Below, in pieces: positions 3,216 to 26,756 of a stretch of 28,512 nt of DNA (position 1 is its first letter; each line of letters starts with the position of its first letter). Both the position numbers and the translations under genes were made by a program. Below the pieces are notes generated by a model. That model was not told the origin of the DNA, ran no database searches, and worked only from the letters and a program-made list of their open reading frames with translations. The stretch comes from a virus. The stretch is taken from the IMG/VR virus record IMGVR_UViG_3300001460_000134, positions 1 through 28,512 of that record. The stretch is one strand, 5' to 3'.

Positions 3216-3818
3216 ATGAAAATAACAAACGAAGATAATATGAATCTGATGGCAAGGTATGAAGATAATTACTTTGATCTTGCTATTGTTGATCCGCCTT
3301 ATGGTTTAGGTAAAAAAATTTATAGTGGTGGCAATAAAGGATGTAAATTTCATACTTTATTTGGAGATAACAAATGGGATGATAATGTTCCCCCAAAAGA
3401 ATATTTTGACGAACTTTTTAGAGTATCAAAAAATCAAATAATATGGGGAGGTAATTATTTTGATTTACCACCAACAAGAACAATAATCTGTTGGGATAAA
3501 ATGAAAGGAGATAATAACTTTTCGATGTGGGAGATGGCGTGGACATCATTTTACAAACCTGCAAAAATATTTAGACAATCATCAATGGGCGAAAGAATAC
3601 ATCCAACACAAAAACCTGTTAAACTTTACGAATGGCTTTTAATAAAATACGCAAAAGAAGGCGATAAAATATTAGATACACATCTTGGAAGCGGAAGCAT
3701 TGCGATTGCTTGTCATAATTTAGGTTTTGATTTAACTGCTTGTGAGTTGGATGAAGATTATTATAATGCAGCAATAAAAAGACTAAAACAACATCAATCT
3801 CAAATGAGAATGTTTTAA
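3216..3818 (+). CDS. DNA methyltransferase, beta-class (probably N6-adenine)
   Basis: 200 aa SAM-dependent amino-methyltransferase. The catalytic motif IV is DPPY (residues 26-29), followed by HPTQKP (129-134) and motif I LDTHLGSGS (153-161), so the order IV before I marks the beta class. There is little room for a large target-recognition domain, as expected for compact phage enzymes. DPPY usually goes with adenine-N6 methylation, though N4-cytosine is possible. It starts 2 bases after the lipoprotein gene. Likely roles are protection against host restriction or pairing with the nuclease-like protein at 1554; neither is shown. Confidence 0.9.
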   Translation: MKITNEDNMNLMARYEDNYFDLAIVDPPYGLGKKIYSGGNKGCKFHTLFGDNKWDDNVPPKEYFDELFRVSKNQIIWGGNYFDLPPTRTIICWDKMKGDNNFSMWEMAWTSFYKPAKIFRQSSMGERIHPTQKPVKLYEWLLIKYAKEGDKILDTHLGSGSIAIACHNLGFDLTACELDEDYYNAAIKRLKQHQSQMRMF

Positions 3819-12091: not shown

Positions 12092-13306
12092 ATGAACGAA
12101 GAAGTAAAAAAGCATCTTGACAAAATAGGAGATATTGTTGATGCAAAGATTGAAAAAGCATTTGGGCAATCCCAAGACAATGCAAAGGGTGAAATTGAAG
12201 CATCCTTAAAAAGTGAAATCAGCAACTTGACAAATGAGTTTGTTGCTAAAAACAAAGAGGCAAACGATCGGATCGATGCTATGGAAATGGCAAACAAAAA
12301 ATTTGCTTCAAATCAGCCGACAACATTCAAAGGAGCCTTAGATAAAGCCATCAATGAGGGTGCGATTGATTCCATCGTAAAAGGTAATGCAAACGCAAGT
12401 CGATTTGAAATCAAAGCGGGTGATATGACAATGGCAAACAGTTATACCGGAGTCGTTGCACAGGAAACAGTTTTGCCAACAATCAAATTTGATCCATCAA
12501 GAGCCACACATATTCGCCAATTAATTCCAAATGGATCAACTGATTCACAAACGATTCGTTATCCAAAGGAATCTGCTTATGATGATGGAGGTGCTGCAAC
12601 TGCTCAAGGAAGTACATTAGGTGCATCCGATTTCGATATTACTGCAACATCAGTAAACGTTGAAAAGATTGGAACGTTTATGAGAATCACAGAGGAAATG
12701 TTGGCAGACACTCCACAGTTGTCAAGCTACCTTTCTGCTCGTGTTCCCGGTAAAATTTTATCAATCGAGGACAACGAGATTTTAAATGGTGATGGTTCAT
12801 CTCCTAATTTAGATGGTTTATTCACCGATGGTGCTGCATTCAATACAACTTCAGGAGCTGCATTTTATCAATCGGTAGAAAGTGCAAACGAATATGATGT
12901 TCTTGTTGCTGCATTAAATCAGTTATCATTGGCGAATTATCAAGGTGATTCGATCATATTAAATCCAACGGATTTACACAAAATCACGTTGTTGAAATCG
13001 ACTGCGAATGAATATCTGAAACAGCAAATTTTCAGCGGATTGCAGCCGACGATAATGGGTATTCCAATCGTTGTAAATACTGCGGTAACATCAGGAAAGT
13101 TCTTAGTTGGAAATCTTGCACAAGCCACACAACTTTGGATTCGTGAGAATCTTGCAGTGGAGTTTAGCCGAGATGATTCCACAAACTTCAGAGATGGTTT
13201 TGTAACAGTAAGAGTTCAAGAACGAGTAGCTTTGACAAATTATTTGCCAAATGCGATTGTTCAGGGAACTTTCTCAACTGCGAAAACATCAATGGAAACT
13301 CCATAA
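12092..13306 (+). CDS. HK97-fold major capsid protein
   Basis: 404 aa. Residues 1 to about 75 are a charged coiled-coil delta domain (scaffold), followed by a linker and, from about 115, the HK97 fold: VVAQETVLPTI, RQLIPNG, MRITEEMLADTPQLSSYL, EDNEILNGDGSSPNLDGLF, a long A-domain, and a C-terminal RDGFVTVRVQERVAL strand. Protease processing is expected around residues 105-118. No extra decoration domain is inserted. Strong terminator-like hairpin follows 20 bp after the stop, so the head operon ends here. Confidence 0.94.
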   Translation: MNEEVKKHLDKIGDIVDAKIEKAFGQSQDNAKGEIEASLKSEISNLTNEFVAKNKEANDRIDAMEMANKKFASNQPTTFKGALDKAINEGAIDSIVKGNANASRFEIKAGDMTMANSYTGVVAQETVLPTIKFDPSRATHIRQLIPNGSTDSQTIRYPKESAYDDGGAATAQGSTLGASDFDITATSVNVEKIGTFMRITEEMLADTPQLSSYLSARVPGKILSIEDNEILNGDGSSPNLDGLFTDGAAFNTTSGAAFYQSVESANEYDVLVAALNQLSLANYQGDSIILNPTDLHKITLLKSTANEYLKQQIFSGLQPTIMGIPIVVNTAVTSGKFLVGNLAQATQLWIRENLAVEFSRDDSTNFRDGFVTVRVQERVALTNYLPNAIVQGTFSTAKTSMETP

Positions 13307-13325: not shown

Positions 13326-13353
13326 AAGGGAGCATATTTGTTCCCTTTTTTTT
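13326..13353 (+). terminator. intrinsic terminator after major capsid gene
   Basis: Stem aaggga (13326-13331) with tccctt (13342-13347), 10-nt loop, then an eight-T run (13346-13353). It closes the head operon. Confidence 0.75.
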
Positions 13354-13392
13354 CATTATTTATTGAAAATATTTTTTTAATTAGAAAAAATG

Positions 13393-13428
13393 TTTTATAT
13401 TTGTATCAACAAACACAAAGAAATTATG
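13393..13428 (+). repeat. promoter-leader repeat, copy 1
   Basis: 36 bp containing TATATTTG, the leader with AACAAACACAAAG and the start codon at 13426. It matches 26131-26166 at 35 of 36 positions (one C/T change). The upstream sequence (attgaaaatattttttta, 13362-13379) also recurs at 26118-26135, but about 15 bp fewer separate it from the promoter there. Confidence 0.85.
13396..13403 (+). promoter_or_regulatory. Bacteroidota -7 promoter box of cassette 1 (TATATTTG)
   Basis: TATATTTG fits TAnnTTTG, 22 nt before the ATG at 13426. The same box and leader precede the gene at 26164, which supports a working promoter. Confidence 0.65.
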
Positions 13429-13692
13429 ACAACAAGAAAAACAATAATTAAAGAATCTACAAAACTTACAATGGGACACAATGAAAATATGTATTTCATG
13501 GTTGAAAATGTATATCAGATTAATTTAAATGGGGAATGTATTTTTATTGAAAAAAGGTATTCAGTAGAAGATAATAGACAAGATGTTTCAAACGGTCGTA
13601 TAATGCGATACTATAGGAATGAGTTTAGCTATAGAAATGCTATTAAAAGATGGGGTAAGAAATCCTTTGGAGCAAAAAGTATAATTTACTAA
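13426..13692 (+). CDS. hypothetical cassette protein, 88 aa
   Basis: The start is the ATG at the end of the shared promoter-leader; the upstream in-frame codons from 13390 fall inside the promoter. The product is basic (MTTRKTIIKES..., RRYYRNEFSYRNAIKRWGKKSFG), likely alpha/beta, with no signal or membrane segment. No family recognised. It has its own promoter and a hairpin terminator, so it is expressed apart from the structural operon: a moron-type accessory gene. It shows no evident similarity to the protein in the matching cassette at 26164. Confidence 0.65.
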   Translation: MTTRKTIIKESTKLTMGHNENMYFMVENVYQINLNGECIFIEKRYSVEDNRQDVSNGRIMRYYRNEFSYRNAIKRWGKKSFGAKSIIY

Positions 13693-13714
13693 ATTAATTT
13701 TATTAGTAAGATTA

Positions 13715-13743
13715 AAAGGGATCATCACGATCCCTTTTTTTTT
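13715..13743 (+). terminator. intrinsic terminator of cassette 1
   Basis: Perfect 9-bp stem aaagggatc (13715-13723) and gatcccttt (13729-13737) with a 5-nt atcac loop, followed by a T run to 13743. The block 13716-13749 is identical over 34 bp to 26371-26404. Confidence 0.9.
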
Positions 13744-13802
13744 GCATTAAACTTTCTAATTAAAAATATTTTTATATATTGCGGTATAAAACAATATAAA
13801 AA

Positions 13803-14190: not shown

Positions 14191-14337
14191 ATGGAAAAAG
14201 GAAATTTTAATTGGGCAGCAACTTATTTAAATATTGCTGACGAATGTAAACAGAAAATGCAGCCGAGAGATTACGTTGTTTTATCGGACAAATTACACGA
14301 GGTAGATAAGTTGGTTCAAGAAATTAAAAATCGTTAA
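14191..14337 (+). CDS. hypothetical protein, 48 aa
   Basis: A soluble helical peptide, MEKGNFNWAATYLNIADEC... ending in a charged amphipathic helix DKLHEVDKLVQEIKNR. It starts 1 nt after the preceding stop and ends 2 nt before the next ATG, so it belongs to the same mini-operon. No family recognised. The coding call rests on spacing and on a plausible helix pattern. Confidence 0.45.
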   Translation: MEKGNFNWAATYLNIADECKQKMQPRDYVVLSDKLHEVDKLVQEIKNR

Positions 14338-14339
14338 TT

Positions 14340-14465
14340 ATGGACTATTTAAACATCAATAATCCCGATCATCAGCACGAAAACGATCACGAATGTTTGG
14401 AGTGCGGTCGGCCATCAGATTCCGAATTTTGTTGCGGAACTTGTTTTGAGGCTTATATGAGATAA
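14340..14465 (+). CDS. small zinc-ribbon-like protein, 41 aa
   Basis: Contains a compact metal-binding set: CLEC (residues 19-22) followed by CCGTC (31-35), together with an His/Asp-rich N-terminus (NPDHQHENDHE). Short treble-clef or ribbon peptides like this are common in phages, mostly without known roles. Last of the five tiny genes, followed at once by a terminator-promoter repeat. Confidence 0.5.
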   Translation: MDYLNINNPDHQHENDHECLECGRPSDSEFCCGTCFEAYMR

Positions 14466-14488: not shown

Positions 14489-14536
14489 TAGTTGGAAAGC
14501 CGTCTTATTTATTTAAGGCGGTTTTTTTTTATCTTT
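14489..14536 (+). repeat. 48-bp direct repeat, left copy, around nuclease gene
   Basis: Matches 14941-14988 at 47 of 48 positions, same orientation, offset 452 bp. The unit holds a hairpin, a nine-T run and a TATCTTT promoter box, so each copy acts as a terminator fused to a promoter. Together the copies bracket one gene (14545-14913). Confidence 0.9.
14496..14530 (+). terminator. terminator hairpin in left repeat
   Basis: Stem 14496-14507 pairs with 14114-style partner bases 14514-14525 (12 bp including two G-U pairs), loop of 6 nt, and the T run continues to 14530. It would end the transcript of the five tiny genes. Confidence 0.7.
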
Positions 14537-14537
14537 A
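14530..14537 (+). promoter_or_regulatory. promoter box for nuclease gene (TATCTTTA)
   Basis: TATCTTTA differs from TAnnTTTG only at the last base; the right copy at 14982 has the consensus G. It overlaps the terminator T run. The ATG of the nuclease gene is 7 nt downstream, so the mRNA would be almost leaderless. Confidence 0.5.
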
Positions 14538-14544
14538 CAATTAT

Positions 14545-14913
14545 ATGGACAGTACAGTTCTTGGATGTTTGGCAGAATATTTATTTTGCATCGAATGTTT
14601 AAAAAGAGATATTAATGTTTCAATGCCATTATCACCGGGATCTGTTTATGATGTTGTAGTTGAATCTAAAGGGGTTTTATTGAAAGTTCAAGTAAAGAGC
14701 CATTATACAGGAGATCCAAATAATATAGATGCTATTAAAGTCAATTTTACTGCAAAACGAAAATATAACACAGATGAAGTTGATTTTTTTGCGATTTATG
14801 TAAAAAAGTTCAATGGTTTTTTTATTTTTAAAAATAATGGAGAAAGGAGGTCAATTCGTTTATCATTAACAAATAAAAATTCAAATTTTTTTAATAATTT
14901 TGAATTCGATTAA
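14545..14913 (+). CDS. I-Ssp6803I-like PD-(D/E)XK endonuclease (PDDEXK_5 type)
   Basis: 122 aa. An early helix with GCLAEYLFC (Glu11), then MPLSPGSVYDVVVE (Asp36), then LLKVQVKSHY (Gln49, Lys51), then a strand-rich C-terminus with VDFFAIYVKKFNGFFIFK. The E...D...QxK set and the spacing match what I recall of the intron-encoded homing enzyme I-Ssp6803I and its PDDEXK_5 relatives, which cut DNA as tetramers. Start at 14545 rather than the TTG at 14485, because the latter lies in the terminator repeat. No intron is visible around it; it is free-standing between direct repeats, so it may be a mobile homing gene or an accessory nuclease. Confidence 0.75.
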   Translation: MDSTVLGCLAEYLFCIECLKRDINVSMPLSPGSVYDVVVESKGVLLKVQVKSHYTGDPNNIDAIKVNFTAKRKYNTDEVDFFAIYVKKFNGFFIFKNNGERRSIRLSLTNKNSNFFNNFEFD

Positions 14914-14940
14914 AATTTTATTTGATTTTTGTTTTATATA

Positions 14941-14988
14941 TAGTTGGAAAGCCGTCTTATTAATTTAAGGCGGTTTTTTTTTATCTTT
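14941..14988 (+). repeat. 48-bp direct repeat, right copy, around nuclease gene
   Basis: Second copy of the terminator-promoter unit; the one difference is T to A in the hairpin loop. Recombination between copies would remove 452 bp with the nuclease gene and leave one intact terminator-promoter between the tiny genes and 15006. Confidence 0.9.
14948..14982 (+). terminator. terminator hairpin in right repeat
   Basis: Same stem as the left copy (14948-14959 with 14966-14977), followed by the T run to 14982. It ends the nuclease transcript. Confidence 0.7.
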
Positions 14989-14989
14989 G
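14982..14989 (+). promoter_or_regulatory. promoter box for connector/tail operon (TATCTTTG)
   Basis: Exact TATCTTTG, 16 nt before the ATG at 15006. It is the likely start of transcription for the connector genes that follow. Confidence 0.6.
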
Positions 14990-15005: not shown

Positions 15006-15200
15006 ATGAAAATTAAAATCATTAAACAAGTTTATACATCTCAAGGATGGAGGAATGAAGGTGCAATTTTTGAACTTGATCCCAAAACTGCAAGGCATTA
15101 TATAAAAAAGGGAATAGGAATTGAATACAAGGAGGAGAAGGCAGAAAAAGAAACAAAAGAATTTAAACCGAAACGAAAATACACAAAACGAAAAAAATGA
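15006..15200 (+). CDS. small basic protein preceding connector genes, 64 aa
   Basis: Opens with MKIKIIKQVYTSQGWRNEGAIFELD then TARHYIKKGIGIEY, a pattern common in small phage proteins next to connector genes (a short beta-domain with a lysine-rich tail). The last 20 residues are almost all Lys, Glu and Arg. First gene after the right repeat, overlapping the connector gene by ATGA. Probably a minor head or assembly factor, but function is unknown. Confidence 0.6.
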   Translation: MKIKIIKQVYTSQGWRNEGAIFELDPKTARHYIKKGIGIEYKEEKAEKETKEFKPKRKYTKRKK

Positions 15201-15724
15201 TGTCGGATATTTTAACTCAAATAAAAATAAGTTCGACAATTGGGAGCGAGGTTATTTCGGTTCAGGATGTCAAGGATTTTGTGAGAATTGATACTTCTGC
15301 GGATGATACTTTAATTTCCCGGATGATCACAACTGCGAGAGAATGGGCGGAGAATTATATGACGAGAGATATTGTTTCTAAATCTCGAATTTATTATTTA
15401 CCCAAGGTCGATGATCGTTTTTTACTTCCTTTTGCTCCAATCACTTCAATTTCACAGGTTACAGTCGATGGGACTGCTACAACAGATTATCAGTTATTCG
15501 GATTAAACGAACAAGTTGTTTTATTAATTTCATTACCATCAAAGGAAGTGAAAGTAACTTATGTAACAACGGGTTTACCTGATGAATCAATAAAACAGGC
15601 ATTGCTGCAATTGGTTTCAAGTTATTACGACAACAGATCAAATTTTGTTGTTGGTGAATCAGTAAACGAGATTCCAACAGGAACAAAAACAATTTTAACA
15701 TCGTTTAAAACAATGTTCATCTAA
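15197..15724 (+). CDS. head-tail connector (HK97 gp6-like)
   Basis: 175 aa. Features of the gp6-like adaptor family: SVQDVKDFVRIDTSADDTLISRMITTAREWAENYMTRDI near the N-terminus (helical bundle), a beta-rich middle (FLLPFAPITSISQVTVDG), then a C-terminal helix with LLQLVSSYYDNRSNF. It forms a ring below the portal. ATG at 15197 overlaps the previous stop; a second ATG directly follows at 15200, so either could be used. It overlaps the next gene by one base. Confidence 0.85.
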   Translation: MMSDILTQIKISSTIGSEVISVQDVKDFVRIDTSADDTLISRMITTAREWAENYMTRDIVSKSRIYYLPKVDDRFLLPFAPITSISQVTVDGTATTDYQLFGLNEQVVLLISLPSKEVKVTYVTTGLPDESIKQALLQLVSSYYDNRSNFVVGESVNEIPTGTKTILTSFKTMFI

Positions 15725-26081: not shown

Positions 26082-26130
26082 ATTTTTTTTAATCTTTTTC
26101 TTAAAATATAGTTTAAAATTGAAAATATTT

Positions 26131-26166
26131 TTTTATATTTGTATTAACAAACACAAAGAAATTATG
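26131..26166 (+). repeat. promoter-leader repeat, copy 2
   Basis: Nearly identical to 13393-13428 (35 of 36), including TATATTTG, the leader and the ATG at 26164. Here the upstream attgaaaatat element is closer to the promoter box than in copy 1. Confidence 0.85.
26134..26141 (+). promoter_or_regulatory. Bacteroidota -7 promoter box of cassette 2 (TATATTTG)
   Basis: TATATTTG, with 22 nt to the ATG, as in cassette 1. Preceded by a TTG at 26119-26121, too close for a canonical -33. Confidence 0.65.
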
Positions 26167-26361
26167 AAATTATTATCTGAAATATTTGATTCATTATTAA
26201 AAAGTTATAACAACAATGAAACAATAAACTTTATTGATATAAGAGATTTAGAGGAAATAATACCAAATTCTAAATTGATCAAGTCGCTTATAAATTCATA
26301 CAACAATAGAGAAAAAATAAACTTTAGAGATTTAAGAGATTTAGAAAATTTAATCAAATAA
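26164..26361 (+). CDS. hypothetical cassette protein with internal duplication, 65 aa
   Basis: Start at the ATG shared with the leader repeat. The protein is built from two similar 24-residue units: residues 10-33 (SLLKSYNNNETINFIDIRDLEEII) and 41-64 (SLINSYNNREKINFRDLRDLENLI), spaced by 7 residues. The shared pattern is L..SYNN.E.INF.D.RDLE..I, predicting two helix-strand-helix or two-helix repeats. No family recognised. It has its own promoter and terminator, as for the gene at 13426. Confidence 0.65.
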   Translation: MKLLSEIFDSLLKSYNNNETINFIDIRDLEEIIPNSKLIKSLINSYNNREKINFRDLRDLENLIK

Positions 26362-26370
26362 CCATCAAAT

Positions 26371-26398
26371 AAGGGATCATCACGATCCCTTTTTTTTT
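26371..26398 (+). terminator. intrinsic terminator of cassette 2
   Basis: Stem aagggatc (26371-26378) with gatccctt (26384-26391), atcac loop, T run to 26398. Identical to the cassette 1 terminator over 34 bp (26371-26404 against 13716-13749). Confidence 0.9.
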
Positions 26399-26433
26399 GC
26401 ATTATTTTAAAAAATATAGTTTTAAATTTAAAA

Positions 26434-26441
26434 TATATTTG
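26434..26441 (+). promoter_or_regulatory. Bacteroidota -7 promoter box of recombination operon (TATATTTG)
   Basis: TATATTTG, 30 nt before the ATG at 26472. A second, weaker TATTTTTG overlaps at 26442-26449. The leader (AGAACAAAATCAAAG) is a diverged form of the cassette leaders. Confidence 0.55.
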
Positions 26442-26471
26442 TATTTTTGTAAGAACAAAATCAAAGTAATT

Positions 26472-26756
26472 ATGGAATTTATCAACTTCAGTTACACCAA
26501 AAATATCGAAATGGAAAAGTCTTATTTCCAAATAAATTACTTTGTCGATGGCACTATTAACATTAGAGGCATATTTTCAGAAAAGCGATATAAAGAACTT
26601 AATTTAATCGAAAACAACTTAGTGGTACACTACGATGATTTATTTCAAAAAAAAGGGTTCAAAATGCTTAGAAAAGATAGAAGTTATTATACCTGTAAGA
26701 ACGCAAAAACATTATTAACCAAAATAGAAAATCAAATTAAAAACAGAAATTTATGA
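26472..26756 (+). CDS. hypothetical protein, 94 aa
   Basis: Start at the ATG just after the leader, since the longer frame from 26397 runs through promoter DNA. The product, MEFINFSYTKNIEMEKSYFQINYFVDGTINIRGIFSEKRY..., is alpha/beta, with a Lys-rich C-terminus. No family recognised. First gene of the recombination operon; overlaps the HTH gene by 4 bp. Confidence 0.55.
   Translation: MEFINFSYTKNIEMEKSYFQINYFVDGTINIRGIFSEKRYKELNLIENNLVVHYDDLFQKKGFKMLRKDRSYYTCKNAKTLLTKIENQIKNRNL

Follow-up and report, generated by a model that had tools for sequence, protein, structure and literature searches.

A homing-type nuclease gene resident in an insulated slot among phage head genes, and a possible competition between its alleles

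Introduction

Why should a nuclease gene of homing type lie among the head genes of a phage, flanked by two nearly identical repeats, and what keeps it there? In the life cycle described for homing genes, a selfish homing gene is expected to decay at fixation, after invasion (PMC13405050). The first-pass annotation of the DNA studied here read the locus as a recent homing insertion that had duplicated a regulatory junction and could be lost cleanly by recombination between the repeats. Here, we compare the locus with those of related phages and weigh this reading against other explanations.

The whole stretch analysed (28,512 nucleotides), hereafter the window, is a contig of 28.5 kb from a marine phage, stored as a virus record. 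Its genes run in the order small terminase, large terminase, portal, capsid, head-tail adaptor and tail, some of these names having been read off the ORF sequences. Two genes of the early region encode a protein with a VRR-NUC domain (13-450) and a DNA methylase of the N6/N4 type (3216-3818). Going by promoter type only, the host phylum is probably Bacteroidota. Capsid and terminase searches of a phage collection for isolated relatives gave only matches below 60% identity, and a search of bacterial genomes gave one match, a contig with the same phage head genes in a Woesearchaeota metagenome-assembled genome. This contig (PBPJ01000031.1, L328) carries a nuclease of the same family and is probably a phage contig that was mis-binned.

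Relatives were sampled as IMG/VR contigs found by pattern scans. Most were retrieved through the capsid, which kept their selection independent of whether a nuclease was present; some of the 185 loci spanning the region of interest came from a nuclease scan.

Results

The locus is anchored on the left by the major capsid protein gene (12092-13306 on the plus strand, as are the features of this locus given below; PF05065, 2.3e-39) and on the right by the head-tail adaptor gene (15197-15724; PHROG 442, 2.6e-22). The nuclease ORF (14545-14913, 122 residues; PF11645, PHROG 5018) is intergenic between the two. Directly 5' of its cassette are two small ORFs of 48 and 41 residues (14191-14465) that are conserved in the subclade of the window, and directly 3' is a gene for a small conserved protein (15006-15200; PHROG 2616) found in most relatives.

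Several lines of evidence point to the family of the nuclease. The Pfam model PDDEXK_5 (PF11645) matches the ORF at 9.7e-14, with 52 bits against a curated cut-off of 26.1, and the I-Ssp6803I chain 2OST is matched at 6e-6 by the single sequence and at 1.7e-9 by a profile. The AlphaFold2 model (pLDDT 89.7) has 2OST as its best fold match (Z 14.9, 2.5 Å over 120 residues); archaeal Hjc resolvases share the PD-(D/E)XK fold but score lower (Z 10-11, best 11.1), and profile and sequence comparisons found no Hjc match; the fold by itself would also be compatible with resolvase activity. The residues E11, D36, Q49 and K51 are exactly where the first-pass annotation had placed them, and they are unchanged in 140 of 140 homologues, among which residues 53-73 vary most. 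A PADLOC homing-endonuclease model also matches (5.5e-8), which we take as a hint of family without reading a defence role into it, while an NCBIfam search gave nothing useful. Sequence and predicted fold thus agree in assigning the protein to the I-Ssp6803I group, as a small PD-(D/E)XK endonuclease that is probably site-specific. It resembles I-Ssp6803I in fold, in size and in the E/D/Q/K pattern of the active site at about 24% identity; however, I-Ssp6803I sits in a tRNA group I intron, whereas the window nuclease is free-standing, insulated and constant in its lineage.

The gene indeed stands free between two 48-bp repeats (14489-14536 and 14941-14988), which agree at 47 of 48 bases and so differ, as claimed, at one. 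Each repeat consists of a hairpin of -16.5 kcal/mol followed by a T-run (z -5.5 and -6.1; no shuffle was equally stable) and, after the T-run, a promoter-like element that runs one base past the repeat, TATCTTTA at 14530-14537 in the 5' copy and TATCTTTG at 14982-14989 in the 3' copy. The -7 element of Bacteroidota is TANNTTTG (PMC6847099); the 3' copy matches it exactly and the 5' copy resembles it, the motif shared by the two repeats being TATCTTTR. The proposal that each repeat is an intrinsic terminator fused to a promoter is therefore upheld as a prediction from sequence. The 5' element ends 7 bases before the ATG of the nuclease (14530-14545), which would leave the mRNA almost without a leader; the same arrangement is seen in several relatives, whose start codon is GTG or ATG. 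As the window holds just these two copies, and shuffled sequences none, a regulatory repeat dispersed across the window was rejected.

Insulation of the nuclease extends well beyond the window. Among 106 relatives, a terminator was found 5' of the gene in 97% and 3' of it in 100%, against 8% in shuffles on either side; the sequences are related, so these counts are not independent. With the same qualification, a T-run followed by the motif TANNTTTR was found in 69% on the 5' side (shuffles 7%) and in 100% on the 3' side (shuffles 2%), compared with 0-7% 5' of capsid and adaptor genes.

The likeness between the two junctions is of a different age. When left and right junctions were compared, six loci of the subclade scored 43-50 and all others 16 or less, the 95th percentile of the null being 17. 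Relatives outside the subclade also have a terminator-promoter on each side, but the two are unrelated in sequence. The terminator-promoter architecture is thus old and the repeat young, and the gene, being present where the repeat is absent, is older than the repeat. Within the subclade, variants of the stem come in left/right pairs (CCGTC/CCGTC in the window, CCGCC/CCGCC in L006 and CCGCT/CCGCT in L003, L005, L008 and L009), with L004 as the exception; such pairing is suggestive of copying, or of gene conversion, from one side to the other. We conclude that the likeness of the two junctions is secondary and limited to one subclade, and that the 48-bp repeat was probably produced by copying or gene conversion of the terminator-promoter module. 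A target-site duplication as the origin of the repeat was rejected, since the gene is older and more widespread than the repeat.

The nuclease was present in all 185 loci that span from capsid to adaptor (140 distinct intervals). The same was true of the 62 spanning loci of a first comparison, nearly all of them fetched by capsid, and of the 55 loci of a further ring reached via a more distant capsid, some of whose contigs repeat earlier ones; capsid identity within the relatives goes down to about 45%. An empty site was found in none of the 140 distinct intervals and none of the further ring, and no decayed copy was seen across the lineage, the active site being intact in 140 of 140. Loci in which no nuclease was seen end at most 1.9 kb past the capsid gene, and the nuclease starts 0.1 to 2.2 kb past it; as these contigs may end before the gene begins, none of them is a proven absence. 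The nuclease is a permanent resident between capsid and head-tail genes in this lineage, and the sporadic presence and empty sites in close relatives that mark a homing gene are not found here.

These results bear directly on the first-pass annotation. That two 48-bp repeats lie in the right place is what a recent insertion duplicating its landing site would predict, but gene-free relatives with a single repeat were looked for and none was found among the spanning loci, the near-identical repeat is confined to a subclade although the gene extends beyond it with two unrelated terminators, and loss by repeat recombination was seen in none of the seven subclade contigs. We therefore regard this origin as very improbable.

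Although the gene stays in place, its ORF does not always keep its flanks. Phages that are about 94-99% identical over kilobases diverge precisely in the nuclease ORF, where their DNA identity is 52-77%, and phages with divergent flanks carry nucleases that are 90-94% identical. In the pair L031 and L050, the capsid is 99%, the protease 100% and the adaptor 100% identical but the nuclease 55%; in DNA, identity is 92-100% up to the start codon, 52-72% in the ORF and again 92-100% over its last 30-odd bases. Over 8.7 kb, L031 and L049 are 98.9% identical once the nuclease ORF, an indel and a single 60-bp window are set aside. Exchange of a whole module was rejected for this pair, as the nuclease ORF is the sole long divergent stretch. 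The pairs L020/L022 and L174/L179 show the same ORF-exact divergence, with more differences elsewhere. The reverse case is given by L134 and L138, in which the nuclease is 91% identical in amino acids, the capsid 53% and the adaptor 67%, and high DNA identity stops near the ends of the nuclease ORF.

On a tree of adaptor and protease, nuclease clusters required 7-8 label changes beyond the minimum and capsid clusters 2-5. Nuclease identity nevertheless tracks adaptor identity (rho 0.70), indicating that inheritance is mostly vertical with repeated replacement. Assembly error could account for a single pair but is unlikely as the source of all swaps, because each of the two alleles is found repeatedly, in contigs that come from different samples. 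The capsid-adaptor interval was also inspected for another nuclease that might cause the swaps, and none was seen. The mobility that had been claimed for the gene is thus borne out in another form, in that the ORF has been exchanged horizontally against its flanks.

It could be argued that the phage has co-opted the enzyme to process its own DNA, for instance by debranching it or trimming it before packaging, and that the swaps are ordinary recombination at a core gene. The median dN/dS of the nuclease is 0.135, near that of the adaptor (0.118), the protease (0.114) and the capsid (0.087), which indicates purifying selection. Like structural genes the nuclease is universal and intact in the lineage, its position among the head genes is fixed, its fold is also near that of Hjc resolvases (Z 11.1), and the HNH nuclease of phage HK97 works with terminase (discussed in PMC10448857). 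However, 2OST, a homing enzyme, is closer than Hjc in both fold and sequence, separate insulated expression would be unusual for a packaging gene, and in a second phage lineage the family is dispensable. There, 22 of 74 loci carry a nuclease of the family between the genes for small and large terminase; in the remaining 52 the gap is short or holds other inserts, HNH_3 genes among them. We consider DNA processing for packaging the main rival to a homing reading, though a less likely one.

The terminase junction of this second lineage (L249-L327) is a hot spot that may hold a PDDEXK_5 nuclease, an HNH_3 endonuclease, a second, unassigned ORF, methyltransferase-like ORFs or almost nothing. In L137 the first bases of the nuclease gene overlap the last of the gene before it, so that the nuclease is not insulated there, and in L090 the gene is at another location. 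Sporadic presence at the terminase genes and the location in L090 show that the family in general behaves like a mobile homing gene.

A second insulated cassette adjoins the capsid gene, about 1 kb 5' of the nuclease cassette. It comprises a terminator, a promoter-like leader, a variable ORF (to 13692) and a terminator at 13712-13749 (13326-13749 in all). Its gene is not a nuclease, and the cassette serves here as an internal control. The window, L003, L008 (whose ORF was read directly off the sequence), L009 and L010 each have an ORF in this slot, together with a leader and a terminator of its own, whereas in L004 and L006 the cassette is missing and one terminator is directly joined to the next promoter. 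At least four different ORFs occur in the slot, several of them between the same terminator-promoter and terminator modules. The idea of a regulatory junction as landing site, which is not borne out for the nuclease, therefore holds for this neighbour, whose site is empty in some relatives and occupied in others. Across the window, the same promoter-leader module occurs three times (13345-13433, 26083-26171 and 26391-26479) and the same terminator GGGATCATCACGATCCC twice (13712-13749 and 26371-26404); these modules surround small ORFs that are unrelated to each other, at two places far apart in the genome.

As a cassette without a nuclease also swaps its ORF, exchange at such junctions needs no nuclease, and the nuclease cassette may be one of several plug-in slots in which shared regulatory sequences recombine and the enzyme is passive in its own exchange. 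Unrelated ORFs between the same modules, and the empty slot of L004 and L006, are what this would predict. On the other hand, the post-capsid cassette is missing in some close relatives and the nuclease never is, and donors with poorly alignable flanks gave nucleases at least 90% identical, so that shared flanks were not always available. We find a passive nuclease doubtful, and less credible than a role in packaging. Since cassettes such as the neighbouring one can be gained or lost at these junctions, it calls for an explanation that the nuclease is always there.

Discussion

The explanation we favour, with about even confidence, is that a homing-type nuclease is kept as a fixed, insulated, allele-swapping cassette whose alleles compete. 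The nuclease gene would be transcribed as a unit by itself, from a promoter-like element of its own, with terminators closing both sides. Occasionally, a divergent allele would replace the ORF through crossovers at the conserved gene ends and the regulatory junctions. We infer that, in mixed infections, the enzyme could cut the DNA of relatives with a different allele, and that repair or selection would then install the allele of the cutter, combining homing with interference competition. As the slot is always filled, alleles would compete with alleles and not with empty sites. A stronger version, to which we give distinctly less than even weight, is that of a homing locus without empty sites, in which every phage of the lineage has one of several mutually hostile alleles in the same insulated slot and each allele spreads by cutting genomes with a different one, so that targets never run out and the enzymes do not decay. 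Three findings count against a homing reading, namely that the nuclease is fixed in the lineage and yet shows no decay, that ORFs are exchanged also in the neighbouring non-nuclease cassette, and that inheritance of the nuclease is mostly vertical.

Known phage systems offer partial parallels to competition between alleles. In T-even phages, free-standing homing enzymes of T4 bring about marker exclusion (PMC2988022), and the reference list of this review has SegH and Hef replacing mobC and mobE. The seg and mob genes are, like the window nuclease, intergenic and beside conserved genes, and a given site may see one homing endonuclease gene replaced by another, as with the alleles in the lineage studied here. 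They differ in being GIY-YIG or HNH enzymes that vary between relatives, seven of those in T4 being promoter-less, whereas in the lineage of the window the slot was never seen empty and the swaps are ORF-exact. Homing endonuclease genes at exchange boundaries in ICP1-like and other phages (PMC10448857) likewise include nucleases near capsid or terminase genes and allele exchanges; that survey covers the T5orf172 and IPA-HNH families, and the word PDDEXK occurs nowhere in its text. Interference competition by a homing nuclease is also the model for gp210 of phage PhiPA3 (PMC11620839), an intron-encoded HNH enzyme for which it was shown experimentally, while in the lineage of the window such interference is a proposal.

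Many diverse phages of this lineage all carry a homing-type nuclease, with no decayed copy seen, and yet its ORF is replaced with near base-level precision. The matched pairs of phages that differ almost only in the nuclease provide a natural system for asking whether such enzymes persist because their alleles compete. More generally, terminator-promoter junctions act as plug-in points for single phage genes.
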